Source: Flavobacteriaceae bacterium
GTDB lineage: Bacteria > Bacteroidota > Bacteroidia > Flavobacteriales > Flavobacteriaceae
Reading direction: 5' to 3'
DNA length: 64,000 bases
Assembly (NCBI GenBank): GCA_018402135.1
Contig: JAGYJF010000003.1
Coordinates: 868,001-932,000, forward strand
A model generated the notes under the pieces. That model did no database searches and was not told the DNA's origin. It worked only from the letters and a program-made list of their open reading frames with translations. The position numbers and the translations under genes were made by a program. This document shows positions 34,516 to 50,991 of this stretch, piece by piece (the stretch's first letter is position 1; every line of letters begins with the position of its first letter).

Positions 34516-34581
34516 GCAATTTTTGGTTTAAATTTCATTTAAAAAAAACCTAATTCATTTAACGAGAAAGCAATCGAATTA

Positions 34582-36609
34582 TTAGAGCAAACCAGCCCGT
34601 TTAAGTAAGGCTTCTGGTTTTGGTTCCTGACCTCTGAATTTTTTGTAAAGCACCATTGGATCTTCTGTGCCACCTCTTGAAAGCACATAGGTTTTGAATT
34701 TTTGGGCTATCTCACTACTGAAAATACCATGTTCTTGAAAATAGGCGAAAGCATCCGCATCTAAAACTTCTGCCCATTTGTAGCTATAATAACCACTTGA
34801 ATAACCACCTTGAAAAATATGTGAAAACGAGGTGCTCATACAGTTTTCAGCAACATCGGGATACAGATTGGTGTGTTTAAAAGCTTCCAATTCATGTACT
34901 TTTACATTGTTGATGTTTTTAGGATTGTAACCGTGCCAACTCATGTCTAATAAACCAAAACTTATCTGGCGGAGTGTCTGCATACCCTGATGAAAGCTTG
35001 CTGACGCTTTTATTTTTTCAATATATTTCATAGGGATTACCTCATTGGTTTCGTAATGTCTTGCAAACAATTCCAGCGCTTCTTTTTCGTAGCACCAGTT
35101 TTCTAGAATTTGACTTGGCAATTCCACAAAATCCCAGTAAACACTAGTTCCAGATAAACTTGGATAGGTTGTGTTGGCCAACATACCATGAAGTGCATGA
35201 CCAAATTCGTGAAATAAGGTAGTTACTTCGTTAAAGGTGAGTAAGGAGGGTTTGGTTTTTGTTGCATTTGTGAAATTACAAACAATAGAAACATGTGGAC
35301 GTTCGTTGGTTTCATTTTTGATGAATTGCGGTTTGTAAGAAGTCATCCACGCGCCATTCCTTTTTCCAGGTCTAGGAAAAAAATCGGCATAAAAAATTGC
35401 CACCAGATTACCGTCGTTGTCTTTTACTACGTAGGTTTTAACATCCTGATGGTAAGTATCAATATCATAAACTTCTTCAAATTTTAATCCGAAGAGTTTG
35501 TTAGCGATTGAGAACACGCCAGTCATGACATTATTTAATTTGAAATAGGGTTTTAACAACTCATCATCTAACTGAAAAAGTTTTTGTTTAAGTTTTTCCG
35601 CGTAATAGGCAGCATCCCATTTTTGCAAGTCGTTTAAACCGTCAAGCTCTTTTGCAAATTGTTGAAGTTCGTAAAACTCTCTTAATGCTGCTGGTTTTGC
35701 CTTTTCTAATAATTCATTCAAAAATGATTGCACACTTTCTGGTGATTTGGCCATACGCTCTTCCAATACAAAATGCGCATGCGATTGGTACCCTAATAAC
35801 TGTGCCCGTTCGTGTCTTAGATTAGCGATTTTTAAAACGATTTTTTCATTATTGAAATTATTATCTTGAAAACCTTTTTTACCAGCAGCAATGGCTAGTT
35901 CCTTTCTTAAAGCCCGATTGTCGCAATAAGTCATGAAAGGAATATAACTGGGATAATCTAAAGTAAATAACCAACCGTTTTTATCTTTACTTTCTGCTAA
36001 TTGTTTGGCAGCTTCAATGGTGCCTTCTGGCAATCCAGCCAAATCACTTTCATTGGTGATGTATAGTTCATAGTTGTTGGTCTCGGCTAGAACATTCTCT
36101 CCAAATTTTAGTTTAAGCTGACTCAATGCTTTGTCAATTTCCCGTAATTGAAGCTTTTGTTCGTCGTTTAGGTTGGCGCCATTTCTTGCAAAACTTTTGT
36201 ACTTTTTGTCTAAAAGTGTTGCTTGCTCTGTGCTTAAATTAAGTTGCGCTTTTTGATTGTAAACGGCCTTTACTTTTTCAAAAAGTGATTCGTTTAGGGT
36301 AATATCATTATTGAATTCTGAGAGTATAGGTGAAATTTCCTGAGCGATTTTTTGAATATCATCATTGGTTTCGGCCGCATTCAGATTGAAAAATATGCTT
36401 GTAATTCGGTCTAATTGGGATCCGGAAAATTCTAAGGCTTCAATAGTATTATGATACGTAGGTGATTCAGAATTTTCGGTTATTTGATTGATTTCGGTCT
36501 TTGCTTCTTCAATGGCTTTTATAATAGCAGGTATAAAATCTTCATTTTTTATTTTTGAAAATGGAGCAGTATTATAAGGTGTTTGAAATGAATTAATTAA
36601 AATTTCCAT
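34582..36609 (-). CDS. M3 family metallopeptidase (oligopeptidase A/Dcp type)
   Basis: Zinc peptidase that trims short peptides. 675 residues with no signal peptide, so cytoplasmic. The zinc site HEFGH is at residues 467-471 (FHEFGHALHGM), followed by the family's downstream Glu region WDFVELPSQILENW. N-terminal helical region and C-terminal GGYSSGYYSYKWAEVLDADAFAYF (the M3 substrate-binding YxxxY element) are intact. Shorter proteins of this type in Bacteroidota are annotated as Dcp (peptidyl-dipeptidase) or OpdA; the sequence does not distinguish them here. Confidence 0.93.
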   Translation of the reverse strand: MEILINSFQTPYNTAPFSKIKNEDFIPAIIKAIEEAKTEINQITENSESPTYHNTIEALEFSGSQLDRITSIFFNLNAAETNDDIQKIAQEISPILSEFNNDITLNESLFEKVKAVYNQKAQLNLSTEQATLLDKKYKSFARNGANLNDEQKLQLREIDKALSQLKLKFGENVLAETNNYELYITNESDLAGLPEGTIEAAKQLAESKDKNGWLFTLDYPSYIPFMTYCDNRALRKELAIAAGKKGFQDNNFNNEKIVLKIANLRHERAQLLGYQSHAHFVLEERMAKSPESVQSFLNELLEKAKPAALREFYELQQFAKELDGLNDLQKWDAAYYAEKLKQKLFQLDDELLKPYFKLNNVMTGVFSIANKLFGLKFEEVYDIDTYHQDVKTYVVKDNDGNLVAIFYADFFPRPGKRNGAWMTSYKPQFIKNETNERPHVSIVCNFTNATKTKPSLLTFNEVTTLFHEFGHALHGMLANTTYPSLSGTSVYWDFVELPSQILENWCYEKEALELFARHYETNEVIPMKYIEKIKASASFHQGMQTLRQISFGLLDMSWHGYNPKNINNVKVHELEAFKHTNLYPDVAENCMSTSFSHIFQGGYSSGYYSYKWAEVLDADAFAYFQEHGIFSSEIAQKFKTYVLSRGGTEDPMVLYKKFRGQEPKPEALLKRAGLL

Positions 36610-36696
36610 AAACTATTTTGTAAGGGTTTTAACGACAGCTTTGTCTATATTTTCCTACTAGGGAATTGATTTTCTGACATTTAACTATTCTTTATG

Positions 36697-36727
36697 ATTG
36701 GATAACAATATTAAATTTCTATCTTTG
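36697..36727 (+). promoter_or_regulatory. Promoter of an orphan transcript upstream of purE
   Basis: ATTG at 36697-36700, a 19-base spacer and TATCTTTG at 36720-36727 match TTTG-N19-TAnnTTTG closely. No gene starts downstream in this direction, only a terminator about 60-80 bases later. Confidence 0.6.
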
Positions 36728-36733
36728 CAAAAG

Positions 36734-36811
36734 ATTTTGGGAAGGACTTTATTGTACTTCATAAAATGTTGATTAATAGCTTTAAAACCTCGAATTTATT
36801 CGGGGTTTTTT
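36734..36811 (+). ncRNA. Candidate small non-coding RNA
   Basis: Between a well-formed promoter and the terminator hairpin at 36786-36807 lies about 78 bases with no open frame that looks coding. It runs antiparallel to, and ends at the stop of, purE. The segment begins AAAGATTTTGGGAAGGAC. Whether it belongs to a known flavobacterial RNA family (for example flavo-1) I cannot tell without a covariance-model search. An alternative is that the signals are coincidental and the hairpin only terminates purE. Confidence 0.45.
36786..36811 (+). terminator. Intrinsic terminator of the candidate sRNA (may also serve purE)
   Basis: AACCTCGAAT (36786-36795) pairs with ATTCGGGGTT (36798-36807), one mismatch, then T residues in the plus direction. 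In the minus direction it directly follows the purE stop but has a weaker T tail, so it may be bidirectional. Confidence 0.7.
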
Positions 36812-37292
36812 AGTTGATACCCTTCGCCGATTCTTCAACTTTTAGTTTTAAATCGGATTTATAAGCTATTATTTTCGCTAAAATATTACCGTCGGATGTC
36901 CCTAGAATCTGAGCCGCCAAAATACCGGCGTTTTTAGCGCCATTTAAAGCAACTGTTGCAACAGGTACGCCACCAGGCATTTGCAGAATTGAAAGAATAG
37001 AATCCCATCCATCAATAGAATTGCTGCTTTTTACAGGCACACCAATTACGGGTAAAGGCGATAACGATGCCACCATTCCAGGTAGGTGGGCAGCGCCACC
37101 AGCACCAGCTATAATTACTGAAATACCTCTTAAATGGGCATTTGTACCATAGTCAAATAACTTTTCAGGTGTGCGATGTGCTGAAACTATATCAACTTCA
37201 ACCGTAATTCCGAATTGTTTTAAAATATCAATGGCGTCCTGCATTACTGGCAGATCGCTTTTGCTTCCCATAATAACTCCAACTTTTTGCAT
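36810..37292 (-). CDS. purE: 5-(carboxyamino)imidazole ribonucleotide mutase
   Basis: Purine biosynthesis enzyme that converts N5-CAIR (from PurK) to CAIR. 160 residues, class I PurE. Motifs MGSKSDLPVM at residues 8-17, SAHRTPEKLF and GAGGAAHLPGMVAS are all present. It starts 34 bases after the purK stop, so purK-purE is an operon, as expected for enzymes that use each other's product. The stop codon overlaps the T run of the opposite-facing terminator. Confidence 0.96.
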   Translation of the reverse strand: MQKVGVIMGSKSDLPVMQDAIDILKQFGITVEVDIVSAHRTPEKLFDYGTNAHLRGISVIIAGAGGAAHLPGMVASLSPLPVIGVPVKSSNSIDGWDSILSILQMPGGVPVATVALNGAKNAGILAAQILGTSDGNILAKIIAYKSDLKLKVEESAKGIN

Positions 37293-37326
37293 AATATGTT
37301 TGTGTTATATTAAATTCGACATTGTA

Positions 37327-38481
37327 TTACTCACTGATAACCTCAATTGTTTTTTTAACCTTTTCAGCGATTACTCGTGCTGTGTTTAAATCTGAATTCA
37401 CTATGGTTACATGCCCCATTTTCCGAAAAGGTCTGGTTTCTTTTTTTCCATAAATATGAGGTGTAACACCATCTAAGGCTAAAATGCTTTCGATGTTTTT
37501 GTAAACTACTTTTCCCTGATAATCTTCTGCTCCCACCAAATTAACCATAACCGCTGATTGCTTGCTTTCTGCACTTCCCAGAGGTAAATCTAGAATGGCT
37601 CGCAAGTGCTGTTCATATTGCGATGTGTAGCTGGCTTCAATACTAAAATGTCCTGAATTATGAGGTCTCGGAGCTACTTCATTTACCAAAACATCACCAT
37701 TTTTCGTTAAAAACATCTCCACTGCTAGCAAGCCAACATGGTTAAATGCGGCCGATGTTCTTAATGCAATTAGTTCCGCTTTTTTAGCGATTTCTGAATT
37801 TATTCTTGCCGGACAAAGTACATATTCTACCTGGTTAGCTTCCGGATGGAATTCCATCTCAACAACCGGATAGGTGCTTACTTTTCCCGAAACAGAACGC
37901 GCAACAATCACTGCTAATTCTGTTTCAAAAGGGATTAATGTTTCGGTGATGCATTCGTCAGGCGATAATTTATCTAAATCGGAATAGGTTTTAACAATTT
38001 TAACGCCGTTGCCATCATAACCAAACTGCGCACTTTTCCAAACAAAGGGAAAACTAAGACTTTCGTTTTCAATGGCAGTAAGAATCTCATCCTTGTAAGC
38101 AAACCGCGAAAAATTTGCTGTAGGAATATTGTGATCTACGTAGAATAATTTTTGACTAGATTTATTTTGGATGGTTCTTAAGGTTTTAGAACTTGGATAA
38201 ACTTTTATGCCTTCTTTTTCTAAACTTTCAAGGGCATTTACATTTACATTTTCAATTTCGATGGTAAGCACATTAGCGCGTTTTCCAAAGTTGTAAACGG
38301 TATCGTAATCCATTAAATCACCTTGAAAAAATTCGTTGCAACCCAACTTGCACGGCGCTTCGCTACTCGGGTCTAAAACCAAGGTGTGAATATCATATTT
38401 TCTAGTTTCGGCAAGTAACATTTTGCCTAATTGTCCGCCGCCTAAAATGCCTAATTTAAATTGAGAAGAAAAATAATTCAT
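37327..38481 (-). CDS. purK: 5-(carboxyamino)imidazole ribonucleotide synthase
   Basis: ATP-grasp ligase that makes N5-CAIR from AIR, bicarbonate and ATP. I start at MNYFSSQFKLGILGGGQLGKMLL, 384 residues; a longer in-frame start at 38529 lies upstream of the promoter element and lacks homology. The glycine-rich nucleotide fold GILGGGQLGK is at the N terminus; the ATP-grasp core FPFVWKSAQFGYDGNGV and the EVAPRPHNSGHFSIEA active-site segment follow. It is transcribed divergently from the HPRT-adenylate kinase gene. Confidence 0.95.
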   Translation of the reverse strand: MNYFSSQFKLGILGGGQLGKMLLAETRKYDIHTLVLDPSSEAPCKLGCNEFFQGDLMDYDTVYNFGKRANVLTIEIENVNVNALESLEKEGIKVYPSSKTLRTIQNKSSQKLFYVDHNIPTANFSRFAYKDEILTAIENESLSFPFVWKSAQFGYDGNGVKIVKTYSDLDKLSPDECITETLIPFETELAVIVARSVSGKVSTYPVVEMEFHPEANQVEYVLCPARINSEIAKKAELIALRTSAAFNHVGLLAVEMFLTKNGDVLVNEVAPRPHNSGHFSIEASYTSQYEQHLRAILDLPLGSAESKQSAVMVNLVGAEDYQGKVVYKNIESILALDGVTPHIYGKKETRPFRKMGHVTIVNSDLNTARVIAEKVKKTIEVISE

Positions 38482-38497
38482 ATTAACATATTTGTTG

Positions 38498-38505
38498 CAA
38501 AAATA
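38498..38505 (-). promoter_or_regulatory. -7 element of the purK-purE promoter
   Basis: On the minus strand TATTTTTG, exact TAnnTTTG match, 17 bases before the chosen purK ATG. No PurR-like operator is recognisable. Confidence 0.5.
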
Positions 38506-38579
38506 CAAATCAAATTTTGCTCTTAACACTAAATTAAAAACAATCTATTGTTGGGCTGGTAAAACCTTAAACAAATGAT

Positions 38580-38587
38580 TATCTTTG
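38580..38587 (+). promoter_or_regulatory. -7 element of the hpt-adk promoter
   Basis: TATCTTTG, exact TAnnTTTG match. Transcription near 38594 would leave only about six bases before the TTG at 38600, so either the leader is very short or translation begins at the GTG at 38609. Confidence 0.45.
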
Positions 38588-38599
38588 TTTTTTTAAAAT

Positions 38600-39721
38600 T
38601 TGAAAACAGTGATAAAGCTTCACGATTTAATCTTTAAACCATTTGTTTCGTCGCAACAGTTAGATGAAATAATAGGTAGAATGGCAAGCGAAATTGCAGC
38701 AGATCTCAAAGATGAAGTTCCAGTTTTTATTGGAATTTTAAATGGTTCGTTTATGTTGGTAAGTGATTTTGTAAAGAAATATCCCCATCCGTGCGAGGTG
38801 ACTTTTATAAAATTGGCCTCGTATGAAGGATTAAAATCAACCGAAGACATTCAGCGATTAATTGGTTTAACCCAAGATTTAACTGGCAGAACCGTTGTTA
38901 TTCTTGAAGATATTATCGATACAGGTAGTACTTTACATGAAGTTCACCGAATATTCAAAAATGAAAATGTTAAACAATTAAAAATTGCTACTTTATTTTT
39001 TAAACCAGAAGCTTATAATAAAGACTTTAAACTGCATTATGTGGGTCTTGAAATCCCAGATAAATTTATAGTGGGTTACGGTTTAGATTACAACGGATTG
39101 GGTAGAGATTTGCCAGAAGTATATCAACTTAAAACAACACAATACATGACTAATTTAGTGCTATTTGGACCTCCGGGCGCAGGCAAAGGGACACAAGCCG
39201 AATTTTTAAAGGACAAATATAATTTGGTACATATTTCTACGGGCGATGTATTTCGTTTTAATATTAAAAATGAAACAGCCTTAGGTATGTTAGCCAAATC
39301 TTACATGGATAGAGGTGAATTGGTACCAGATCAATTAACCATAGATATGCTAAATGCAGAGGTTGAAAAAAATCAAGATGCCAAAGGGTTTATTTTTGAC
39401 GGTTTTCCAAGAACCAACGAGCAAGCCAAAGCATTGGATGCCTTAATGGAAAGTAAGGACTCACAAATCAACGCAATGATTGCGCTTGAAGTAGATGATG
39501 AAGTATTAGTTAAAAGACTATTAGATCGCGGTAAAACTAGTGGTCGTGCAGACGATGCTGACGAAAACATCATTAGAAACCGAATCACCGAATATTACAC
39601 TAAAACAGCCGTTTTGAAGGATTTTTATTCGGAACAGAATAAGTATTTTGGTGTTGACGGTGTTGGTAGTATTGAGGAAATTACGCAGCGTTTGAGTAAA
39701 GTAATAAACGAATTAAAATAA
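38600..39721 (+). CDS. adk: Hypoxanthine phosphoribosyltransferase-adenylate kinase fusion
   Basis: A 373-residue bifunctional protein. Residues 1-182 are a phosphoribosyltransferase with the PRPP loop VVILEDIIDTGST at 99-111, of the hypoxanthine/guanine type. Residue 183 is a methionine at the normal start of adenylate kinase: LVLFGPPGAGKGT (P-loop 190-198), STGDVFRFNI, FDGFPRTNEQ and a short lid with RGKTSGRADD, lacking the zinc cysteines. Start is TTG at 38600 or GTG at 38609. Fusion joins purine salvage (IMP/GMP formation) to adenylate balance in one chain. The arrangement is seen in other Flavobacteriia and is not an assembly artefact, as the frame is continuous. Confidence 0.93.
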   Translation: MKTVIKLHDLIFKPFVSSQQLDEIIGRMASEIAADLKDEVPVFIGILNGSFMLVSDFVKKYPHPCEVTFIKLASYEGLKSTEDIQRLIGLTQDLTGRTVVILEDIIDTGSTLHEVHRIFKNENVKQLKIATLFFKPEAYNKDFKLHYVGLEIPDKFIVGYGLDYNGLGRDLPEVYQLKTTQYMTNLVLFGPPGAGKGTQAEFLKDKYNLVHISTGDVFRFNIKNETALGMLAKSYMDRGELVPDQLTIDMLNAEVEKNQDAKGFIFDGFPRTNEQAKALDALMESKDSQINAMIALEVDDEVLVKRLLDRGKTSGRADDADENIIRNRITEYYTKTAVLKDFYSEQNKYFGVDGVGSIEEITQRLSKVINELK

Positions 39722-39755
39722 TTTAATTTTGGCCTATTTAAATTAATTAATTATC

Positions 39756-39968
39756 ATGGAGTTTATAACACCGGGTTCAGGACTTATCATTTTTACAATA
39801 ATCTTTCTCCTATTTTTATTGCTGCCTTTTTTAGCATTGATAAGTATTGTTACAAATAAGTTTCCAGATAATGATAAACTTATTTGGGTTGTTATTGTTT
39901 TATTGCTGCCAGTTCTTGGTGCTATTTTATATTTTAGTATAGGCAGACGTAAGCGATTAAAAGAATAA
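39756..39968 (+). CDS. Small membrane protein, PLD-nuclease N-terminal-like domain
   Basis: 70 residues with two transmembrane segments (about 8-33 and 43-63) and a basic tail RRKRLKE. The second helix VVIVLLLPVLGAILYFSIGR matches the pattern of PLDc_N domains, normally found at the N terminus of cardiolipin synthases or as stand-alone small proteins. No catalytic residues. It lies between the adenylate kinase fusion and obg, on the same strand, and may share their transcript. Confidence 0.75.
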   Translation: MEFITPGSGLIIFTIIFLLFLLLPFLALISIVTNKFPDNDKLIWVVIVLLLPVLGAILYFSIGRRKRLKE

Positions 39969-40024
39969 ACGTAAGTGTTACTATTTTAAATAAGCACTGT
40001 CGTTAAATTAACTTATTAAAAAGA

Positions 40025-40042
40025 TTCCCGTTTTCACGGGAA
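40025..40042 (+). promoter_or_regulatory. Hairpin in the obg leader
   Basis: TTCCCGT (40025-40031) pairs with ACGGGAA (40036-40042) around a TTTC loop. It ends six bases before the obg ATG and is not followed by a T run, so it is not a terminator; it could affect initiation. Confidence 0.5.
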
Positions 40043-40048
40043 ATAAAT

Positions 40049-41047
40049 ATGACCGAAGGAAATTTTGTAGATTACGTAAAAATATATGTTACTTCTGGAA
40101 ACGGAGGAAAAGGTTCGGCGCATTTACACCGAGAAAAATATGTGGAAAAAGGTGGTCCAGATGGTGGTGACGGTGGCCGTGGAGGTCATGTAATAGTTAG
40201 AGGTAGTTCAAACCTTTGGACGCTTTATCACCTAAAATTCAAAAAACATTTTAAGGCAGACCATGGCGAACATGGCAGTAAATCCAGAAGTTCTGGTGCC
40301 GAAGGTAAAGATGTATATATTGATGTTCCTCTTGGTACCGTGATAAAAGATTGCGAAACCGATGAGGTTTTATTTGAAATCACCGACGAAGGTGAAGAAA
40401 AAATTGTTGTTGAAGGGGGCATGGGTGGTCGCGGTAATTGGCATTTTAAAACCTCTACCAATCAAACACCCCGATATGCACAACCAGGCACTCCGGGAAG
40501 TGAAAGTCGGATTACCATAGAGCTAAAAGTGTTGGCCGATGTTGGCTTGGTAGGCTTTCCCAATGCTGGAAAATCTACACTACTTTCTGTTATAACGTCA
40601 GCTAAACCAAAGATAGCCGATTACGAGTTCACCACTTTAAAACCAAATTTAGGCATTGTTGAATACCGCGATTTTCAATCATTTGTCATGGCCGATATTC
40701 CTGGAATTATTGAAGGCGCTGCTGAAGGTAAAGGTTTGGGTCATTATTTCCTGCGTCATATAGAACGTAATTCTACCTTGCTGTTTTTAATTCCTGCCGA
40801 TGCGCCTGATATATCGAAGCAATACGATATATTGTTAGATGAATTAAAGCGGTACAATCCTGAATTGCTCGATAAAAGCAAGCTAATCGCCATCTCAAAA
40901 TGCGATATGCTGGATGATGAATTAAAGGCTGAGCTAAAAATTGAATTGGATAAGCAATTACCTATTCCATATTTATTTATTTCTTCAATCGCGAATCAGG
41001 GTATTAAGGAATTAAAAGATAAATTGTGGAACATGTTGAATGAATAG
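40049..41047 (+). CDS. obgE: GTPase Obg
   Basis: Essential ribosome-associated GTPase involved in 50S assembly and stress control. Residues 1-158 form the glycine-rich Obg fold ([20 protein letters not shown]). The G domain follows: G1 GFPNAGKST at 169-177, G2 TTLKPNLG, G3 [10 protein letters not shown]4 AISKCD and G5 SSIAN. At 332 residues it lacks the long C-terminal OCT extension, as is usual for Bacteroidota. It is preceded by a small hairpin in the leader. Confidence 0.97.
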
Positions 41048-41239
41048 CATGAATCGTGTTATGAATGAATTATCGTGTATTTTCGTTTCCATTATCAAAT
41101 AATATTATCGATGTTCTGAAATATTGATTTTGTAAGATTTTTTTCATTTTTAATTTCTTTTATACATCCCAAATAAATTATTACCTTTATTCAGCTTGTT
41201 ATGGAAGCCTCATTTTCATGAATCAAAACTTAAAAACCT

Positions 41240-41755
41240 ATGAAAAAGATTTCAATTTTATTCCTTTTCGCCCTACTTATGGGCTGCGGTGCCACTATAA
41301 ATTACGACTATGAAAAGTCCACGGATTTTTCACAATACAAAACCTATAGTTATTTTTCCGACATGCAATCTGGTTTAAGTGAACTAGATGAAAAACGTTT
41401 TATAGCTGCTTTAAACGAGGCGTTAAAAGTTAAGGGGTTTACCATGGCCGAATCGCCAGATTTTTTTATTGACATCCAGACGGAGGTCTATGACACGAAC
41501 AACCAGAGCAATGTTGGCGTGGGACTTGGCGGTGGCGGCCGTAATGTTGGTGGCGGTTTAAGTATTGGAATTCCTGTGGGTCAAAGCAGTATGACAAGAT
41601 TGATTTTAGTTGAATTTATAGATAAGGATCGAACTGGATTATTTTGGCAAGCAAACTCTTCTAGCTCCTATAGACAAAATGCTTCACCCGAAAAACGAGA
41701 AGCAGATTTTAGAACGCTGGCAGCAAAAATATTATCGAAATATCCACCAAAATAA
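41240..41755 (+). CDS. DUF4136 lipoprotein
   Basis: 171 residues. Lipoprotein signal MKKISILFLFALLMGC with Cys16, then the DUF4136 fold: YDYEKSTDFSQYKTYSYF near the start and LFWQANSSSS plus AAKILSKYPPK at the end. A glycine-rich run (GVGLGGGGRNVGGG) lies in the middle, also typical. Anchored in a membrane leaflet; function unknown. It is a single-gene unit ending in a terminator. Confidence 0.9.
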   Translation: MKKISILFLFALLMGCGATINYDYEKSTDFSQYKTYSYFSDMQSGLSELDEKRFIAALNEALKVKGFTMAESPDFFIDIQTEVYDTNNQSNVGVGLGGGGRNVGGGLSIGIPVGQSSMTRLILVEFIDKDRTGLFWQANSSSSYRQNASPEKREADFRTLAAKILSKYPPK

Positions 41756-41757
41756 AT

Positions 41758-41792
41758 ACGGCTAGCACTTTATCGCATTAGCCGTTTTTTTT
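41758..41792 (+). terminator. Intrinsic terminator of the DUF4136 gene
   Basis: ACGGCTA (41758-41764) pairs with TAGCCGT (41779-41785), followed by T residues, three bases after the stop codon. Confidence 0.8.
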
Positions 41793-41810
41793 AGAAAACT
41801 CATGTGGTTC

Positions 41811-42182
41811 TTATTTTAGCAAGGGCTTGTATTTGTCTTTGTATCCTATAAGCACCACAATATTTAGTATTAAAAAAACTGCGGCTCCAGCTATACCTCC
41901 GGGATCTAAAGTAGCATGAAACAGTACTGAGTTTACTCCAATACTAATTAAAATGATGGCTAATAATGTGCCATACCTGTTAAAAATAAGTGCTAATCCA
42001 GCCACAATTTCTACAATTGCTACCAGAGTAAGTGTTTTGGCGCTCGAAAGCGCACCAAAATAAGTACCGGCGTCTTCCGACATTTCAGGCATGGGCATAA
42101 AGTTAAAAAACTTATTTAACCCAAATACAAGTGCGAAAAGGCCAAGAAAAATTCTTAGGACCATAAAAACTTTTGAATTCAA
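41811..42182 (-). CDS. DoxX family membrane protein
   Basis: 123 residues with four hydrophobic helices, the standard four-helix DoxX fold. LGLFALVFGLNKFFNF at the first helix and SSAKTLTLVAIVEIVAGLALI are typical. Role in this organism unknown; relatives take part in redox or thiosulfate metabolism, but that cannot be inherited here. Convergent with the DUF4136 gene. Confidence 0.85.
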   Translation of the reverse strand: MNSKVFMVLRIFLGLFALVFGLNKFFNFMPMPEMSEDAGTYFGALSSAKTLTLVAIVEIVAGLALIFNRYGTLLAIILISIGVNSVLFHATLDPGGIAGAAVFLILNIVVLIGYKDKYKPLLK

Positions 42183-42352
42183 AATAGTTTGGTTTATTTA
42201 GTTAGTGAATTAAATAGTGTAAAAGTGGAGCGCTGATTTTATTACTTGCAAAAGTTTTAACAAATCTGGTTAATGCGGACTTTCAAAAACGGGTTATTGT
42301 GTTAAATTAACTAAAATTATTATCTTAGTAATGATTCTAACACACCAACACA

Positions 42353-43120
42353 ATGGATACAAACAACTCACACAAAAAAATCACAAAAGTAACTGAAGGC
42401 GCCTCAGAAAATGTTCAATCACGCACATTTGTTCCAACAGATGAAGCTAAAGCCAAAGCCAATAGATTGCGTTTAATTGCAATTATTTCATGGGTTGTTG
42501 CCATTGTCGCGCAACTCTTTGCCATTTCATTATTATTTAAGGAACCCATAAACATGACATGGCTCATTGTTTTAATTGTGGTTGACTTGATATTTGTGGT
42601 CATCGGTTCTGTTCTTTGGAAAAAATCGAATCGACTTGATCCAGCTTCAGAAAAGGATAAGTTTAAATTTTTTATGCAGAATCAACTTGGGCTCGTCGTT
42701 GCCATCATTGCATTTTTACCACTTATCATCTTTATTTTTACCAATAAAAATATGGATGGTAAACAAAAGGGAATTGTTGGTGGTATTGCCGTTGTGGCCT
42801 TGTTAATAGCGGGTGTTACAGGGATTGATTTTAATCCGCCATCCATAGAACAATACACTGAGCAAACCAATAGAGTAGAATGGCTTAACCAAGGTGCTAA
42901 TAATGTGTATTGGACTAAGTCGGGAACAGTGTATCATTTATTTAGCGATTGTTCCTATATCAATACAGCTAAAACTTCCGAAATATTTGAAGGCACTGTG
43001 GCACAGTCAAGAGAACTTAAGAACATTACTAATCTTTGTAGCCGTTGTGAAAATAAAGCCATGAAGGAGCGTAACTTAGACGAATCCGACTATAATACAA
43101 AACCAGAACTTACGGATTAA
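42353..43120 (+). CDS. Membrane protein with C-terminal Ada-like metal-binding motif
   Basis: 255 residues. A polar N terminus with KAKANRLRL precedes four hydrophobic segments at about 40-62, 68-90, 111-130 and 138-158. The cytosolic or periplasmic C-terminal part has NVYWTKSGTVYHLFSDCSYI with His195 and Cys200, then NLCSRCENK with Cys229 and Cys232: a three-Cys/one-His pattern like the Ada_Zn-binding fold. No catalytic domain is visible. The last 22 codons exist a second time at 44395-44460, beyond the inserted toxin-antitoxin block. Confidence 0.75.
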   Translation: MDTNNSHKKITKVTEGASENVQSRTFVPTDEAKAKANRLRLIAIISWVVAIVAQLFAISLLFKEPINMTWLIVLIVVDLIFVVIGSVLWKKSNRLDPASEKDKFKFFMQNQLGLVVAIIAFLPLIIFIFTNKNMDGKQKGIVGGIAVVALLIAGVTGIDFNPPSIEQYTEQTNRVEWLNQGANNVYWTKSGTVYHLFSDCSYINTAKTSEIFEGTVAQSRELKNITNLCSRCENKAMKERNLDESDYNTKPELTD

Positions 43121-43148
43121 CTTTTATTCTTATGACTTCACTATGACT
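43051..43148 (+). repeat. 98-bp direct repeat, left copy
   Basis: About 90 percent identical to 44391-44488, with a spacing of exactly 1,340 bases and no gaps. It contains the 3' end of the membrane-protein gene (intact here) and, reading the other way, the last 12 codons of the macroglobulin gene (a relic here). Confidence 0.9.
43110..43148 (-). pseudogene. Relic of the macroglobulin gene's 3' end
   Basis: Minus-strand reading SHSEVIRIKVNP then TAA, matching SHSEGIRIKVNL at the true end of the macroglobulin at 44450. It no longer connects to a gene and marks the left junction of the inserted block. Confidence 0.8.
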
Positions 43149-43273
43149 GGTTAATCGTTGTGTAATTAATGCTTAATGGCTAGTTGGATTACACATCTGT
43201 ATGGGTTTTCAAGTACCACGCAAAAGGATTAGATATCGCTAAATTTATTTTTTCGCGCGGTAGGTCGGATAAA

Positions 43274-43564
43274 TTATCTTATCTTTTTTTCTGGATTTTG
43301 CCATGTGTTGAAGACGGAATACACAATAATTTTTTCTTTTGAAATTTGATAAATAATCAGGAAGGGGAAGCGTTTTATAAAAGCTTCGCGATAGGGTTTC
43401 CTTTTTTGAGGGAAGTGTCTTGGGCGTGATGTAATCCTATCAAAATAAGCATCTAGATGTTCTAAGAATTCTTCACCAAGTCCTATGCGTTTTTCCTCGT
43501 AATAAAGAAAAGCTTCAATAATCTCTAAATTAGCCTCGTCTTTGACCTCTAAAAAATATGTCAT
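43274..43564 (-). CDS. RelE/ParE family toxin
   Basis: 96 residues, type II toxin fold: EVKDEANLEIIEAFLYYEEKR at the N terminus, the central KRKPYREAFIKRFPFLIIYQI and the C-terminal IIVYSVFNTWQNP all fit the ParE/RelE pattern. Whether it cleaves mRNA on the ribosome or inhibits gyrase is not decidable; the YREAF...FPFLIIY strand-rich core is commonly called RelE/ParE. It starts three bases after the antitoxin stop. Together they form a toxin-antitoxin operon inside the inserted block. Confidence 0.85.
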   Translation of the reverse strand: MTYFLEVKDEANLEIIEAFLYYEEKRIGLGEEFLEHLDAYFDRITSRPRHFPQKRKPYREAFIKRFPFLIIYQISKEKIIVYSVFNTWQNPEKKIR

Positions 43565-43567
43565 TCA

Positions 43568-43801
43568 CTAACCAGCGTTTCTTGCGTTCTGTTTTACTTC
43601 TTCCCAAGTGAAGGATTTGCTCTCACCTTTTAAATGTCTTTCTCTACGCTTGTCAATCATTTGATATTGTTCTTCGCTTAACATAAGCTCTTGCTCGTCA
43701 TTTTGATAGCTTTCCGCTAATGCTTTTATCAATTTCAGAAGCCTTATATCGGCGGCATTTACATACGCTTTAACCGTGTTTCTCAAATCTGTTGTTGCCA
43801 T
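43568..43801 (-). CDS. Antitoxin of the RelE/ParE pair
   Basis: 77 residues from the ATG chosen (MATTDLRNTVKAYVNAAD). A longer start at 43885 is unlikely because a -7-like element lies at 43823-43830. The N-terminal half is helical and probably dimerising; the C-terminal half (MIDKRRERHLKGESKSFTW) resembles the toxin-wrapping tail of small flavobacterial antitoxins, ending WEEVKQNARNAG, a common pattern next to ParE/RelE toxins. No known DNA-binding fold can be named with certainty. It precedes the toxin, the usual order. Confidence 0.75.
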   Translation of the reverse strand: MATTDLRNTVKAYVNAADIRLLKLIKALAESYQNDEQELMLSEEQYQMIDKRRERHLKGESKSFTWEEVKQNARNAG

Positions 43802-43822
43802 AACATTTACTTTTTTCTTATG

Positions 43823-43830
43823 TAAATATA
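43823..43830 (-). promoter_or_regulatory. Possible -7 element for the toxin-antitoxin operon
   Basis: On the minus strand TATATTTA, one mismatch to TAnnTTTG, 22 bases before the antitoxin ATG. It supports the short antitoxin start. Confidence 0.3.
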
Positions 43831-43921
43831 CAATTTCTGTTTTATAAGTTTTTATTTTTAGTCGTCGCAATCCCTCGAAACCCAACGAAAATGTAGTTTC
43901 GACGCAGTCAACTAAACAGTT

Positions 43922-44284
43922 CTAGTTTCTATATGCCGCAGGTATAATATGTGAACTTTTAACTTGGATGTTATTACATTTATTTTCTTCATACCACTTT
44001 AATATATTTACACGGTCTTTTTCGAAAACTCCAGAGGGGTAAGTTCTGCCATAATTCATGATGCGGTTGGTTGAAACTGGCGAGTAGTATGATATAAAAG
44101 TGACTGATACCCTAAATAAGGAATCTTGTGATATGAACATATTATCTTCAATATAGTTAAGATGGTAAAAAAACTTTTTTTTAAATTGAGCATTCTCTAT
44201 ACAATCATCACCGTTATTAGCAATTTTAGCTGATTTACAAGAAAGAAACAATACCACGATAATTAAAAAATAAATATTTTTCAT
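43922..44284 (-). CDS. Small lipoprotein of unknown function
   Basis: 120 residues from the ATG that places a lipoprotein signal at the start (MKNIYFLIIVVLFLSCKS, Cys17). The longer frame from 44362 adds a leader without homology. No domain recognised; two cysteines (DDCIEN, NKCNNI) in the mature part may pair. It lies in the inserted block next to the toxin-antitoxin genes and is absent of its own terminator. It may be passenger cargo of the insertion. Confidence 0.6.
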   Translation of the reverse strand: MKNIYFLIIVVLFLSCKSAKIANNGDDCIENAQFKKKFFYHLNYIEDNMFISQDSLFRVSVTFISYYSPVSTNRIMNYGRTYPSGVFEKDRVNILKWYEENKCNNIQVKSSHIIPAAYRN

Positions 44285-44385
44285 AATTACTTGATTTTTG
44301 TTACTAAGGCAGCATGCTGAAGTTAAAATATTAATACGAAAATAACGCTCTTCTCTCGACACCTTGGGATTCCTATTTCACAGCT

Positions 44386-44460
44386 ATAAAAAACAAAGCC
44401 ATAAAAGAGCGTAACTTAGACGAAGCCGACTATAATACAGATCCAGAACTTACAGATTAA
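44386..44460 (+). pseudogene. Relic of the membrane-protein gene's 3' end
   Basis: Plus-strand reading NKAIKERNLDEADYNTD then PELTD and TAA, matching NKAMKERNLDESDYNTK and PELTD at the true end of the 42353-43120 gene. The upstream part is missing. It marks the right junction of the inserted block. Confidence 0.8.
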
Positions 44461-44488
44461 CTTTTATTCTTATGCCTTCGCTGTGACT
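44391..44488 (+). repeat. 98-bp direct repeat, right copy
   Basis: Ten mismatches relative to 43051-43148. Here the macroglobulin end is intact and the membrane-protein end is the relic. Confidence 0.9.
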
Positions 44489-47400
44489 ACTAAATTCTGG
44501 CGCATACATACTTTGAATCGTGGTAATACCATTGCTCATATTTCCAGAATTATTGACTCTTAAATCGTATTCAAATACGTAAATCCCTTTTGGTAAATAG
44601 TCAAAAAAGAAATTGGTTGAAGCATCTTTGGTAGCCTCGTAGTAGCCAAGTCCGTCTTGCCATTTGTATTGTGATAACACATTCACAGGTTCTAAACCTG
44701 CCGCGCGCATATCTTTCATGTGAATGAACTCCATGTCGCGATCACTTCTCAATTCAATTCGAACGCGAACTAAATCGCCAACCTTTAGGCTGGTGCTGTC
44801 GTCGATTTCGGTAATGACTTCACCTTTATCAGCATTAGATTTTAAAAATAGTTTTTTGTTTAACTTCAAGGGTGTTTCCGCTTTGGTGATTTTATCTAGG
44901 TCTTCAAAATATTGCCAGTATAAACTTCCCCAGGCGATACCTTCACCTTTTTTGGCTAAAGTGACTTCAGACATTTTTGGTTGAATTTCGGAATCGATCC
45001 ATGTGGTTTTAAAATAGCCTGTACCGGCTTCAATTTTAACATGTTCTAGCTTTGAAGGTTCTATTTTTTGAGAACCAACCATAATTTCAACGGCTTCTGT
45101 TATACTGAGCCAATCACTTCCTTGTAACAATAAGGCGTAAATTGCTTTAGTTGTGGCCTTGGTAGTTTTCCAACTATTGGTTTGTTTGTGTTTGAGTAAC
45201 CAAATTTTAAGATTGTCTATAGTGGTTGCATTGTTTTTGCTAGCATTATCAATTTCAGAAAAGGCTTCAATTATCAAGGACTGCGTTTCAATAGGTGCTT
45301 GATACCAATGCCAAGAGGCTGTATTTTCTTTCCAATACATACCCAATTCGTCACTCACAATGGCGGTTTCTTTTAGAGATTTTAAGATTTTTTGAGCTTG
45401 ATTTGCGTTGTCATTTCTGTTTGAAATTAAGGCCATCAGACCTTTCGCGTACAATGGTCTGTTCAACCAATAGTTGTTTATTTGCGTGAGATAGTAATTT
45501 ACGATGCGTTGCACTTCTTCGCTTTTTGCGACTTCGGGAAAGAAACTTCGCATGTACAAGTAATGCAACTGCATAGCACTTAAATGATCTTTTGAAAGGT
45601 CTACTTTTGAGCTGTATTTGGTTAGATTTTTATATTCTTCAACAAATTCAGCATCTAAATAATTGATGGCTTTTGTAATCGTACCCTCTTCTAAGGAGTT
45701 TTCGGTAACGCTTAATTTTTTTAAATGTCCGAGACCAATAATGATGTGCTGGGTGATGTAGCGGTTTGGTTTTCCACCTTCAAACCAAGCCCAAGCGCCG
45801 TTAGACATTTGATTGTTTTGAATTTGGCGTTGCGCTTTTTGCAATTCGCTATTCATTTTATTTAAATCGAAAAGTAGAGCGATGCGTTTCTTTTGTTCAC
45901 TTTCACTTTGCGCATCACGTAACCACGGTGTTTCCTCAATTAATATGGATTTAAGCTCTTGATTTTTCTCAAGATTAGAAATTAAGGCATCCGAATTTCT
46001 CCAAAGCTCAAAAACTTCTTTAATACGCGGATTGGAATTCGCTATATGACTTGCCAAAGCGTTTGCATAGAAGCGGGAGAAAATCTGTTCGTTACAATCG
46101 TAAGGATATTCCATTAAATAAGGTAGTGCCTGTACGGCGTACCAAGCTGGATTGGATGTCATTTCTAAAGTGAGCTGGTGGTGTTTTAAAGTAATTGAGG
46201 TATTGTTTTTTAGTTTATCTAGGGTGAAGGTTCTAGTTTCGTTACTTCTAACCCACATTGGCAAGGTTTCGGTTACTAGCATTCTGTTTGATAATACCGG
46301 CAAGGCGTTTTGCTCAGCATCGCTAAATTCCTCTGATTTTGCAATAACAGTATATTGCACGGCATCAATATTATCGGGTATGCGCAAACTCCAAGTTATT
46401 TCTGTGTTGCCTGACGCTTCCACACTGAATAGCCCACTCTGTCCTTCGGACATCTCTCCCAAAGGGAGAGAATTTGTAGTACTCTTAATCAAGCTTTGGG
46501 TAATATCCTTTCCTGTAACGGCATCCACTAATTGCAGTACGGCTTGACCTGTTAAGGTTTTATCGGTTAAATTGGCAATTTTAGTACTGATATTAATGTC
46601 ATCACCTTGACGTAAAAAGCGCGGTGCGTTGGGAATTACCATCAATTCTTTTTGCGTTACTGTTTCAAGGGTTTTGGTGCTGCTTTCTAGGGTTTTTGTA
46701 TGCGCTAGTAATTGCAATTTCCAACGCGTTAAGGCTTCAGGGGTTGTAAAACTAAAACTGATATTTCCTTCTGCATCGGTTTGTAATTGCGGAAAGAAAA
46801 AGGCGGTTTCTTGTAGATTTTTACGGATTTTGATATTTTGAAATTGCTGTTGCGATTTTTTTTCGCCGGATTTTGTAGTAACTAAAATAACTCCACCAGC
46901 TCCTCGATTTCCATAAATTGCAGTAGCCTCAGCGTCTTTCAAAACTGATAAGCTTTCAATGTCAGTTTGACTTAAACTTTGGAAATCACTTTGACTTACA
47001 GGCACACCATCAATTATATAAAGTGGTTCATTATCAGAATTAAGTGAACTTCGTCCTCTGATTATAATTGTTGAATCGGCTCCAGGTTGTCCAGAAGCAG
47101 CAGAGACATTTACTCCTGCTGCCTGTCCAGAAAGTAATTGATCCATTTCAACAATTGAAACATCTTCTATTGCCATAGCTTCATTTCTCTTGTACATCAT
47201 ATTATTCCTATTACTCCCAAAATAAAACCCATACCAATTAACCTGGTCGTATTGCTGACGCGGATAAGCTGCACCCACCCTAGGTAGATAAACCCTAAAT
47301 GATTTATTACCAAAACTGCCAACATTATTTCGTTTTGAATAACTGTAATAAACGGGATTTTGAATAGGACTAAATTGCCATTGGTGCATTTTAAATTGAT

Positions 47401-50400
47401 CTAAAGACGCGTCGTACATGCTAGCCAAAAGCTCGGCACTTACTTTTTCGCCTTGTGGACCTTTGATTTTAAATTGCCAAGTTTCGTCGGTTCCTGGTTG
47501 TAATTTATCTCTAAAAACCGAGGTTTCTATCTCTAAGTCTGATTTAGGATATGGCACTGAAATGTTCATGGTCCCACTTTCAAAACTGTTGAAAACAGCA
47601 TAACTGTAATGAATGGCAAAGCCTCCAACATCTTCTGGATGTATAGGAATAACGATACTTTTTTTGTGATTATCAAGTGGAATGATATAGGTATTTACAA
47701 TTTTTTCGTTTTTTTCTACGTCAACAGTCACCGTTAATTTCGTGGCAGAACCAAAGCTTATTACTGTGACATCATTTGGTTGATAGCTGGATTTATCAGT
47801 GTTTACAGTGAATAAAGTTTGATCGGAAACGGTTTTATCGTCATCGCTGTATAGTGTCATCTGGGTTTCATCTTTCACCACTTGATTAAATTCATCTTGA
47901 CTTTCCAGAAGTACGATATAGCTGCCAGACTGCCATTTTTTTAAATTGCCTAGTTTTATTTCTTTAGCGATTGCAGTATTGAAATCAACTTCAAAAACAA
48001 GTTTACCTTGCTTCCAGTTTTTTGGATTGTGTTCGTTATTATAAGCGTCGTGTGGGAATAATTTTTTGAATGCTGCTTCGTCTAATGTCGCTAAATCGGG
48101 CGCAGACCACGGTCTTGGTCTCAACACTTGCTGTGGTGCAGTGAGTTTGTAGATTTTTATGGTACCATTGGCGGCTACAAATTCGCCATTTAGATTTTTT
48201 GTATCAATAGTGATTTGCGGATCTTTAATGTTTTTGTCTAATTTATTGGCAATTCCGATAGTGGCTGTCATCGCATGGTACCCAACATTCACGGTTGTGG
48301 TTGCGCTTCTTGTTTCGCCATTTAGATCGGTGATATCGGCTGTAATTTCGTAGGTGAAAATCGGATTTCCTTTTTTATCGACGGATTCGTCTGGAATGGC
48401 TTTGAATTTAATTTCAAAATTTCCTTCTGCGTCGGTTTCGGTGTCGCCATAAGTTATTTCTTGAGACTGACTATATATAGGCATTCTTCTCCAAGAATAC
48501 CAGCGTGGATATTGAACCGTTCTGACTACGCGATAGGCCACGGTTGCATTGGTGATATTGCTTCCGGCGTAAGCCATGGCATTTCCTTTCGCACTGATGC
48601 TATCGTTAATGCGGTAGGATTCTTTAATTGGATTGAACTTAGCTTCAAATTTTGGACGTTTGTATTCTTCAACTGATACATATACGTTATTGAAAAGTTC
48701 GATATTGTCGGCCTCAATTTCTATTTCAAATTCACCGGTAAGTCCGCTTTGTGGTAGCATGAATTCACCAGAAACAGAACCAAATTCATTTGTTTTGAGC
48801 TCAAGCGTTTTAAGGTCTTGTGAGTTGGCATCGTACAATATTACTTCAACTTTTTGATTGGCTAGTACTTCAGATTTCCCATGGTTATTTTTTATAACAA
48901 TGCCTTTAAAATAAACGGTTTGACCTGGTCTGTAAATGCTGCGGTCGGTAAATAAAAATGCTTTGTACTTAATACTAACCTCGCTTTCTTCAGATTTTTG
49001 ATTCATGTACAAATTCCCAAAATGAGCCGTTTCTTCATTGCGTTTGGCATTCAAACTTAAATTTAAATAGCGAACATTATTTTTTTGAATGGAAACTTCT
49101 CCGTTTTTATCGGTTACAAATGACTTATTGATAAATGGCCCGTTGTATTTTTCTTGATAGGAAATTTCCACGCTAACGCCAGGTAAAGGTTTGCCGTTAT
49201 TTCTATTGATAATTTGATAGGTTTCAGATGTGTTGGTGGATTTCGACAGTAATGCCATATCGCTTACCTGAATGGTGGTAAATCCGAAAGTTTCATTGCC
49301 ATTTGGTAGTTGTGAAAAAAGTATATAATTACCATTGTTTAAGGCAGGCATTACCACTTCGGTACTGTGAGTTTGATAGTCATTTTTTGTAGGAAGTGTT
49401 ATTTGCCAAGATTCCGTAGCGGTTAAGTTTGATACAAATTGGTATTGTTCATCTTTTTTATAGGTTTTATTGAACTGCTCAAGTTGGGCTTTGCTAATTT
49501 TAAAAATCTTAAAATCAAGATTCTTAATGTTAGCATGTCGTAACAGCACCAATGAGTGTTTTTGGATGGGTAAAAACTGTTCTGCGGTGATTTGGAGTTC
49601 AGGTTTAAGAATTTGAGTTTTTAAAATCTCTGCCTTTTCAGAAGCGTTGCTGTTTGGGAAATCATGGCTGATAGTGGTGCAAATTTCTAAGGCTTTTTTT
49701 AGTTGCCATTGCACCTCGGTATTCGTGTCGATGTTGAATTTTCTACCTTGTTTATAGTAGAGTGATGCCATTTCAAAATGGTATAATCCTGAAACATCGG
49801 ATTTATACATATCAGTGGAAGCTTTTAAAGTTGCTTCTAAATAGATGTCTTTGTTTTCGAAAGTGGCGTTTTGATACACGAAATTTATGCGTTGGATATC
49901 GATATCAACCAATGCAAATGGCTCTTTATCATTTTTATGGAAAGCGGTGAGTTGCTGATAAATTTTGAGTGCATTGAGCTCAAGTGATAAACTGTCTTTT
50001 GTTTGGATGTTTAAATTTGAAAATTTGGTAACTTCTGAAAGCAATTCAGGATTTTCAATATTAAATTTATACGAAGGCTGGTTAATGCTGCTTTCGGAGG
50101 TTTCGTAAAATTTTAATGCATTATGGCTTAATAAATCGAATAAGGTTGGCCGGTAGCGTTTTGATGATTCACCTTTCAATAGTAATTCATCATACTGAAC
50201 CAAACGTGTTTGTTGTAAAACTGAAATATTTTCTAAAGAATTTTGATACAGCTTATGAATTTCATTAAACAAGATTTGTAAATCCCAAGTTCTAAAATCG
50301 TCCGAAACTTTTTCGGTAGTTGCAGATCTATTGTAAAACTTCCATCTGTTTGATTGAAAATATTGCCAGTACATGGTTGCCATTAAATTCTCTAGCAAGT

Positions 50401-50704
50401 TTTTTGTAGGTGCTTGGCTAATGGCTATTTCAGATTTAAAGTTATTGATAATGCTTAATTGCGCGTCTTCTTCTAGCGTTAAAGCATATTTACTTTCATA
50501 GATTAGGCATTTAATACGTTGCGTTGCGTTGTTCTCTTTTTCAGCTAAATTTGAAATTTTAGAAACTACTTCTAAAGCTGATTTTGGCAAGCCTTGTGCT
50601 TCAAATTTGGTTACCTCTTGCCATAAAGCGGTGTAGTTTTCAGATTGACCAAAAGAGAAATTTGCAAAAAGGAAAATCGTTAATAGTGCTGTAAAATGTT
50701 TCAT
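44450..50704 (-). CDS. Alpha-2-macroglobulin family protein with a TonB-receptor plug-like domain
   Basis: 2,084 residues, exported (signal LLTIFLFANFSFGQ). Expected role: bacterial macroglobulin, trapping attacking proteases. N-terminal helical repeats (to about 380) are followed by MG-type beta domains, including the MG2 region FTDRSIYRPGQTVYFKGI (about 585-600). At about 1180-1275 lies a TonB-dependent-receptor plug-like stretch (GQAAGVNVS, IIIRGRSSL, PLYIIDGVPV, AIYGNRGAGGVILVTTK). Then the A2M domain and the thioester-like YDCNEQ (Cys1537) with an alpha/alpha-toroid after it. At about 1410-1424 an insertion from a palindromic repeat reads LPLGEMSEGQ. The last codons lie in the direct repeat of the neighbouring insertion. 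The C-terminal bait/receptor part is complete. Confidence 0.92.
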   Translation of the reverse strand: MKHFTALLTIFLFANFSFGQSENYTALWQEVTKFEAQGLPKSALEVVSKISNLAEKENNATQRIKCLIYESKYALTLEEDAQLSIINNFKSEIAISQAPTKNLLENLMATMYWQYFQSNRWKFYNRSATTEKVSDDFRTWDLQILFNEIHKLYQNSLENISVLQQTRLVQYDELLLKGESSKRYRPTLFDLLSHNALKFYETSESSINQPSYKFNIENPELLSEVTKFSNLNIQTKDSLSLELNALKIYQQLTAFHKNDKEPFALVDIDIQRINFVYQNATFENKDIYLEATLKASTDMYKSDVSGLYHFEMASLYYKQGRKFNIDTNTEVQWQLKKALEICTTISHDFPNSNASEKAEILKTQILKPELQITAEQFLPIQKHSLVLLRHANIKNLDFKIFKISKAQLEQFNKTYKKDEQYQFVSNLTATESWQITLPTKNDYQTHSTEVVMPALNNGNYILFSQLPNGNETFGFTTIQVSDMALLSKSTNTSETYQIINRNNGKPLPGVSVEISYQEKYNGPFINKSFVTDKNGEVSIQKNNVRYLNLSLNAKRNEETAHFGNLYMNQKSEESEVSIKYKAFLFTDRSIYRPGQTVYFKGIVIKNNHGKSEVLANQKVEVILYDANSQDLKTLELKTNEFGSVSGEFMLPQSGLTGEFEIEIEADNIELFNNVYVSVEEYKRPKFEAKFNPIKESYRINDSISAKGNAMAYAGSNITNATVAYRVVRTVQYPRWYSWRRMPIYSQSQEITYGDTETDAEGNFEIKFKAIPDESVDKKGNPIFTYEITADITDLNGETRSATTTVNVGYHAMTATIGIANKLDKNIKDPQITIDTKNLNGEFVAANGTIKIYKLTAPQQVLRPRPWSAPDLATLDEAAFKKLFPHDAYNNEHNPKNWKQGKLVFEVDFNTAIAKEIKLGNLKKWQSGSYIVLLESQDEFNQVVKDETQMTLYSDDDKTVSDQTLFTVNTDKSSYQPNDVTVISFGSATKLTVTVDVEKNEKIVNTYIIPLDNHKKSIVIPIHPEDVGGFAIHYSYAVFNSFESGTMNISVPYPKSDLEIETSVFRDKLQPGTDETWQFKIKGPQGEKVSAELLASMYDASLDQFKMHQWQFSPIQNPVYYSYSKRNNVGSFGNKSFRVYLPRVGAAYPRQQYDQVNWYGFYFGSNRNNMMYKRNEAMAIEDVSIVEMDQLLSGQAAGVNVSAASGQPGADSTIIIRGRSSLNSDNEPLYIIDGVPVSQSDFQSLSQTDIESLSVLKDAEATAIYGNRGAGGVILVTTKSGEKKSQQQFQNIKIRKNLQETAFFFPQLQTDAEGNISFSFTTPEALTRWKLQLLAHTKTLESSTKTLETVTQKELMVIPNAPRFLRQGDDINISTKIANLTDKTLTGQAVLQLVDAVTGKDITQSLIKSTTNSLPLGEMSEGQSGLFSVEASGNTEITWSLRIPDNIDAVQYTVIAKSEEFSDAEQNALPVLSNRMLVTETLPMWVRSNETRTFTLDKLKNNTSITLKHHQLTLEMTSNPAWYAVQALPYLMEYPYDCNEQIFSRFYANALASHIANSNPRIKEVFELWRNSDALISNLEKNQELKSILIEETPWLRDAQSESEQKKRIALLFDLNKMNSELQKAQRQIQNNQMSNGAWAWFEGGKPNRYITQHIIIGLGHLKKLSVTENSLEEGTITKAINYLDAEFVEEYKNLTKYSSKVDLSKDHLSAMQLHYLYMRSFFPEVAKSEEVQRIVNYYLTQINNYWLNRPLYAKGLMALISNRNDNANQAQKILKSLKETAIVSDELGMYWKENTASWHWYQAPIETQSLIIEAFSEIDNASKNNATTIDNLKIWLLKHKQTNSWKTTKATTKAIYALLLQGSDWLSITEAVEIMVGSQKIEPSKLEHVKIEAGTGYFKTTWIDSEIQPKMSEVTLAKKGEGIAWGSLYWQYFEDLDKITKAETPLKLNKKLFLKSNADKGEVITEIDDSTSLKVGDLVRVRIELRSDRDMEFIHMKDMRAAGLEPVNVLSQYKWQDGLGYYEATKDASTNFFFDYLPKGIYVFEYDLRVNNSGNMSNGITTIQSMYAPEFSSHSEGIRIKVNL
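46440..46471. repeat. Palindromic repeat inserted in-frame in the macroglobulin gene
   Basis: Two hairpins back to back: TGTCC-TTC-GGACA (46440-46452) and TCTCTCCC-AAA-GGGAGAGA (46453-46471). They code for the LPLGEMSEGQ stretch. The sequence looks like an interspersed flavobacterial palindromic repeat that happens to keep the frame. Confidence 0.65.
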
Positions 50705-50830
50705 GGGTTTAAAATATTGATTTTTTTATGAGATGTCTTTATGATACCTCAGTTTCTATGGAAAATGGTTAATTTACAACCATATTAATTAAGTTTTTTG
50801 ACAGGTATTGCATACTAAAAGCGTTTCATA

Positions 50831-50838
50831 CAAAGTTA
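50831..50838 (-). promoter_or_regulatory. Possible -7 element of the macroglobulin promoter
   Basis: On the minus strand TAACTTTG, exact TAnnTTTG match, about 127 bases before the ATG, giving a long leader. A TTTG occurs upstream with a 16-base spacer, shorter than usual. Nothing else recognisable is in the 288-base gap between the macroglobulin and the TPR gene. Confidence 0.35.
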
Positions 50839-50991
50839 TAGTCAAAATGCGTTCCAAAAAATTCAAAATGAACTAACAAGTCACTTTTATTGGGTGAAGT
50901 GGTGGTTTGGATGCGTAAGCGCGACCCTATTATGTTTTAAAGTTAGGTTATAAAGCCGTAAGTTTACCAAATTCAAATCGACAATAGCTAT

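Follow-up and report, generated by a model that had tools for sequence, protein, structure and literature searches.

In the 64-kb stretch of Flavobacteriaceae DNA analysed here (the window), insertion with long target duplication is the probable route by which a toxin-antitoxin (TA) operon, along with some extra sequence, came to lie at the junction of two convergent genes; we give this reading a probability of about 0.72. Some 100 bp of host sequence at the target, comprising the 3' ends of both genes, would have been copied at insertion; the left copy would complete the gene for a membrane protein and the right copy the gene for a macroglobulin, each keeping a useless relic of the other end. 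The repeat, the single-copy site in a congener, the foreign TA pair, the lack of a recombinase gene and of terminal inverted repeats, and the parallel cases at other loci are sequence evidence; the molecular step that joined the DNA is what we infer. The window comes from a draft genome of the family Flavobacteriaceae (2.69 Mb, 6 contigs, ca. 89% complete), where it lies on a contig of 1.04 Mb.

The repeat pair, the block and the empty site

A direct-repeat search of the window paired 43050-43155 with 44390-44495, two copies with 88% identity over 106 nt and a spacing of 1,340, and BLAST of the copies gave 90% identity over 99 bases. This agrees with an earlier note on this DNA, which had described direct repeats of about 90% identity at a constant offset of 1,340. 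No other direct repeat in the 64 kb has its copies separated by more than 400 bp (minimum length 35 nt, distance up to 6,000), and a query of 43040-43160 against the whole draft genome matched at these two places only. Elsewhere in the window there are three tandem 121-bp units (3664-4026; the second 97% and the third 69% identical to the first) and a 236-bp direct repeat pair (14243-14871; 77% identity, spacing 393).

As target duplication we consider 43050-43149 (left copy) and 44390-44489 (right copy). The left flank is the intact gene of a membrane protein of 255 amino acids (42353-43120, plus strand; an ORF with no Pfam match), the final 71 bp of which lie inside the left repeat copy. This copy also holds the 3' end of the macroglobulin gene as a relic, readable on the minus strand as LTSHSEVIRIKVNP*. 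The right flank is an intact alpha-2-macroglobulin family gene encoding 2,084 amino acids (44450-50704, minus strand; PF17973, PF01835 and PF00207), whose 3' end is intact in the right copy, where the membrane-protein end is the relic, readable as KNKAIKERNLDEADYNTDPELTD*. That each copy contains both gene ends, with intact end and relic swapped between left and right, had already been noticed and is borne out here. The macroglobulin protein (44450-50704) also includes a TonB-dependent receptor Plug domain (PF07715, residues 1178-1272).

The inserted block between the copies measures 1,240 bp (43150-44389, 33% G+C). It encodes a predicted ParE-type type II TA operon, consisting of a ParE/RelE-type toxin of 96 amino acids (43274-43564, minus strand; PF05016 ParE_toxin, 25.3 bits, cut-off 23) and an antitoxin of 79 amino acids from the ATG used here (43568-43807, minus strand; PF09720 Unstab_antitox, 25.5 bits, cut-off 23.3). 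The assignment is based on both families scoring above the Pfam cut-off and on the gene arrangement, with the antitoxin first and 3 bp between the genes; against TIGR02574 the antitoxin reached 27.9 bits, under the cut-off of 31.9. The third ORF of the block encodes a small lipoprotein-like polypeptide of 121 amino acids (43922-44287, minus strand; lipobox read by eye). It has no Pfam or NCBIfam match; apart from the window itself, a search of 299 genomes gave matches in just 3, all of them weak. The ORF list of the block contains no integrase- or transposase-sized ORF, as the earlier note had also stated, and Rfam gave no match over 42000-45500. Translated searches revealed no membrane-protein or macroglobulin sequence between the repeat copies. 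The toxin matched 8 plasmid records, all with less than 60% identity, and gave no phage match; no vehicle was identified in these searches.

In Paucihalobacter ruber, the one congener compared, the same neighbourhood is found with a single junction and no block. The order obg, DoxX-family gene, membrane-protein gene and macroglobulin gene is conserved, with the last two convergent; the membrane-protein orthologue (75% amino acid identity) is at the same place and the macroglobulin orthologue is adjacent. This comparison supports the view that a TA-bearing block was inserted between two convergent genes in the window. The earlier note had expected that a relative lacking the block would have the two genes directly convergent with one copy of the junction, which is the arrangement in P. 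ruber; the case that it had named against its reading, with the block present in all relatives, does not hold for this congener. Since the block is missing and the junction is single in P. ruber, the block is better regarded as an insertion than as the result of a loss in P. ruber, which is less likely.

The two convergent stop codons are separated by 35 bp in P. ruber (hand count), whereas in the right copy of the window they overlap in a short stretch (44450-44460), so the ancestral junction was shorter than that of P. ruber. The exact ends of the target in the window cannot be fixed since P. ruber is a distant outgroup with its gene ends 35 bp apart. When the differences between the copies were polarised with P. 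ruber, the left copy had 6 changes and the right copy 4, over a short and partly ambiguous alignment, and this split does not decide between origins. The comparison also bears on an integron gene cassette (attC), which was rejected because the window repeat shows homology with two core genes of P. ruber, at their coding ends. An IS-flanked composite element or an IS or REP repeat at the window was likewise discarded, since the repeats are gene ends and have two copies in the genome.

Related TA pairs and their flanking repeats

Toxin matches were found in 41 of 299 Flavobacteriaceae genomes (the window genome and 40 others), the best of them being 80-85% identical and from other genera. The DNA similarity of the homologues to the block spans about the TA operon only (ca. 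43270-43858 in the window). The blocks of the window, of genome G212 (locus L113) and of genome G410 (locus L211) have a core of 570-580 bp in common, composed of the TA operon and little else (43272-43851, minus strand, in the window), with 76-79% DNA identity overall and 77-79% between the window and the other two. They are located at three different loci between three different flanking repeats, and no other long match among the three blocks was found beyond the TA core. None of the five neighbour genes from the window was detected near the TA pair in the seven regions with the closest homologues, which cover 3-20 kb around each pair.

The flanks of the homologous pairs were surveyed in 101 regions: window positions 34001-54000, L110-L149 and L190-L249, of which 40 surround the 53 non-window toxin places of a first search and 60 more surround places from a second search (4 new ones were left out). 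Toxin homologues were re-found at 96 loci, and 12 of the 101 regions gave none at E 0.1. A simple repeat pair was defined as 35-400 bp copies of at least 75% identity at a spacing of 500-2,600 bp, with at most one other overlapping repeat. Such a pair flanks 12 of the 96 TA loci (the window, L112, L113, L120, L137, L142, L146, L148, L190, L211, L215 and L242), or 11 of 95 when the window is left out. The permutation mean for the full set was 1.68 and none of 20,000 random placements reached 12, a comparison that tests position only and not TA pairs against other strain-specific genes. Three of the twelve are probably other kinds of repeat: L120 has a 251-bp repeat with a palindromic end motif (REP/IS200-like by eye), while L112 and L146 lie in repeat-rich regions. 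All three are included in the 12 of 96, although we regard them as doubtful; without them and the window, 8 of 91 loci are flanked versus a permutation mean of 1.29, a count again reached by 0 of 20,000 placements. In an earlier and cruder control, 6 of 39 toxin loci were flanked; among 1,338 control positions the figure was 32, and these were concentrated in 8 of 41 regions. The remaining 84 of the 96 TA loci have no such repeat, in a sample that comprises one bacterial family and ParE-like toxins and in which clear and doubtful cases were sorted by eye.

Locus L122 was not counted, as its flanking repeat is 5 kb apart and near an integrase-like ORF. In this region (L122, 2782-10274) the integrase-like ORF (by eye) is accompanied by several repeats and by a series of ORFs of TA and Rhs-like type, and the region is possibly cassette-like; lists of attC motifs for L112, L118, L122 and L146 gave nothing clear. 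A further 15 simple repeat pairs in the survey regions do not flank a TA pair, and the 11 inspected are tandem paralogues and others. Among these, at L204 (13581-16031) a DNA polymerase IV-like gene has its end copied over 202 bp with 97% identity, and the two copies enclose a Bro-N gene, a footprint of similar kind around different cargo; L209 (1467-2225) has a 55-bp repeat pair (87%) around a small lipoprotein-like ORF.

The homologous TA pairs of other genera are located at unrelated loci, and some lie between two copies, 46-100 bp long, of the target itself; in the clearest cases this target is a gene 3' end. Repeat length is 100 bp for the window, ranges from 46 to 99 bp over seven other TA blocks and reaches 202 bp in the one block with other cargo. 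Besides the window, four loci (L142, L113, L190 and L211) have a gene end inside the repeat. The cleanest case is L142 in genome G268, where a 54-bp repeat with 100% identity represents the end of polA (DNA polymerase I) up to the stop codon. The convergent gene of a 2-oxoacid dehydrogenase acyltransferase adjoins polA, and the two genes are found end to end in 9 of 10 congeners of G268; in the tenth (73% complete) no orthologue was found. Each copy of the polA end is 70-76% identical to the four congeners compared, a pattern as would be expected if the host's own target had been copied at insertion.

At L113 (G212) a 65-bp repeat with 94% identity corresponds to the end of a ketoacyl-synthase-family gene, followed by a biotin-synthase-like gene; the orthologue was found at 64% identity or more in 9 of the 12 congeners searched. 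The TA pair is at the same place in four species (G212, G324, G328 and G327), and the relic copy has a DNA identity of 82% in G324 and 75% in G328, with none detected in G327. The 65-bp target is present once in G323, which has the two genes and no TA pair, and twice around 701 bp in G212.

L190 (G414) has a 99-bp repeat (96%) with the end of one gene and the stop codon of the gene convergent to it; here the toxin frame is interrupted by a stop and the antitoxin has no Pfam match. The single congener of G414 differs downstream, which leaves L190 with no full empty site. At L211 (G410) the 48-bp repeat (90%) consists of the final bases of a MeaB-like gene together with the spacer downstream. 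In the congeners G440 and G199 the corresponding genes are adjacent with no TA pair, with a 25-bp overlap of the two matches in G440. The repeats of L242 and L215 are intergenic, and those of L148 (both copies) and L137 (right copy) are strong terminator hairpins, which could be alike for other reasons.

Nine of the blocks, eight of them with a TA pair, were measured and range from 581 to 1,240 bp. No terminal inverted repeats were found at E 0.05 within 80 bp of their ends. Comparison of the target repeats of the window, the ketoacyl-synthase gene and polA showed nothing in common except short matches attributable to chance.

Origin of the duplicated junction

The earlier note had proposed integration by a single homologous crossover of a circle that came from a related strain and brought both the junction and the TA pair. 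This would lead to the same final structure as insertion with long target duplication, the 10% divergence between the copies would fit a donor allele, and a RecA-type circle could spread an existing duplication between strains. Still, the proposal leaves unexplained how the circle first gained the TA pair together with the junction, and it is not needed, as copies that start identical can drift apart afterwards. Likewise, the deduction that the 10% divergence points to another strain is no longer compelling: in G268 the copies do not differ from one another and both have the same 70-76% identity to the four congeners compared, and in the genus of G212 the relic decays along with the species, so that post-insertion drift can account for the divergence in the window. 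With the polarised changes in the window (6 left, 4 right) showing no donor pattern either, we consider integration of a donor circle unlikely.

The position of the repeats at gene 3' ends, which they restore, also recalls integrative elements that use the 3' ends of protein genes as attachment sites. CIME-like elements and e14 at icd are examples of this arrangement, and the block could be a remnant of such an element that has lost its integrase. Against this, the three target repeats (window, ketoacyl synthase and polA) have no common sequence and hence no shared attachment core, the blocks are just 581-1,240 bp with no integrase in their ORF lists, and the cases differ in target and in TA subtype, which makes a remnant quite improbable. 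We give about as little weight to a longer tandem duplication that was partly lost, the other origin suggested earlier, with the TA pair entering later or coming along. Duplicated gene ends are the residue expected from such an event, but translated searches found no residue of either gene between the copies, the TA pair of the block is related to pairs of other genera, and this TA core recurs at two other loci between target repeats unlike those of the window, so that two separate events would be required at each. A misassembly or chance repeat is hardly credible; the genome is a draft of 6 contigs with 89% completeness, but the copies are ca. 10% different, lie inside the 1.04-Mb contig and each run into a different intact gene. 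On this evidence the tandem duplication and the chance or misassembly explanation were rejected.

For insertion with long target duplication, the lack of terminal inverted repeats in the blocks, the sharing of the TA core alone and the unlike targets argue against a transposase or a site-specific integrase and for a repair-like event. The route that we tentatively favour, at slightly under even odds, is capture of the TA DNA during repair of a break, in which the strands would be cut or resected 50-100 nt apart and fill-in would make the repeat. Template switching during replication, where copying jumps back, is our next choice and a less probable one. Only insertions that leave both genes whole would survive, and a copied gene end would leave the gene whole and so allow the insertion to persist. 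Direct repeats of 50-100 bp also allow exact deletion, so that the cargo which remains would be one that punishes its own loss, such as a TA pair. It may be, although we would not yet bet on it, that TA operons are mobile units in their own right in the Flavobacteriaceae that insert, as some restriction-modification systems do, with a long target duplication and no transposase, with addictive cargo holding inserts that otherwise delete themselves. In this respect the footprint hints at how TA pairs may move without a jumping enzyme.

Comparison with known insertions

In the accessible text of a 2020 review, the mechanism by which type II TA systems integrate is described as unelucidated (PMC7167474), and the searchable part of the open-licence PMC literature yielded no report of a TA insertion with long target duplication. 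The recurrent footprint with its empty sites provides a concrete and datable signature for this integration question. As type II TA insertions, passages of the same review describe mazEF (between relA and mazG), yafNO (between dinB and yafP) and ccd (between folA and apaH) of Escherichia coli. Similar to the block in the window, these are positioned between core genes and missing from other strains, and in these passages no carrier is named (PMC7167474). One filled and one empty genome were compared for each, and no long target duplication was found: ccd replaces 74 bp and mazEF 59 bp, and yafNO has a 7-bp overlap. The route is hence not universal; target duplication is one route among others, or older cases have lost its trace.

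Flanking direct repeats of host sequence, many of which are present at the orthologous empty site, have also been described for transposed genes of Arabidopsis, according to excerpts of PMC2869330. That case differs in concerning plant genes, and in the same excerpts the authors favour circles and homologous target sites (PMC2869330).

The closest parallel is offered by restriction-modification systems, for which insertion with a long and variable target duplication on the order of 100 bp is described in sections of PMC3874152 and PMC3031569. This type of insertion is credited to Nobusato et al. 2000 and Furuta et al. 2010, as cited in portions of PMC3874152, PMC3031569, PMC1643837 and PMC3154945. 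The mobility of TA systems is discussed in PMC3874152 as well; in the portion available to us the footprint is named for restriction-modification systems only. Judged from these partial texts, the insertions have in common with ours a small self-promoting unit, a long and variable duplication, no named carrier and detection by genome comparison. They differ in that the cargo here is a type II TA pair and the host group is the Flavobacteriaceae, and in that the clearest cases here involve gene 3' ends, which in three instances belong to convergent pairs. With a TA pair as cargo, the block in the window is a variant rather than a strict member of insertion with long target duplication as published. 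The footprint thereby links TA pairs with restriction-modification systems, and it suggests asking whether inserts prone to deletion through direct repeats are protected by addiction.
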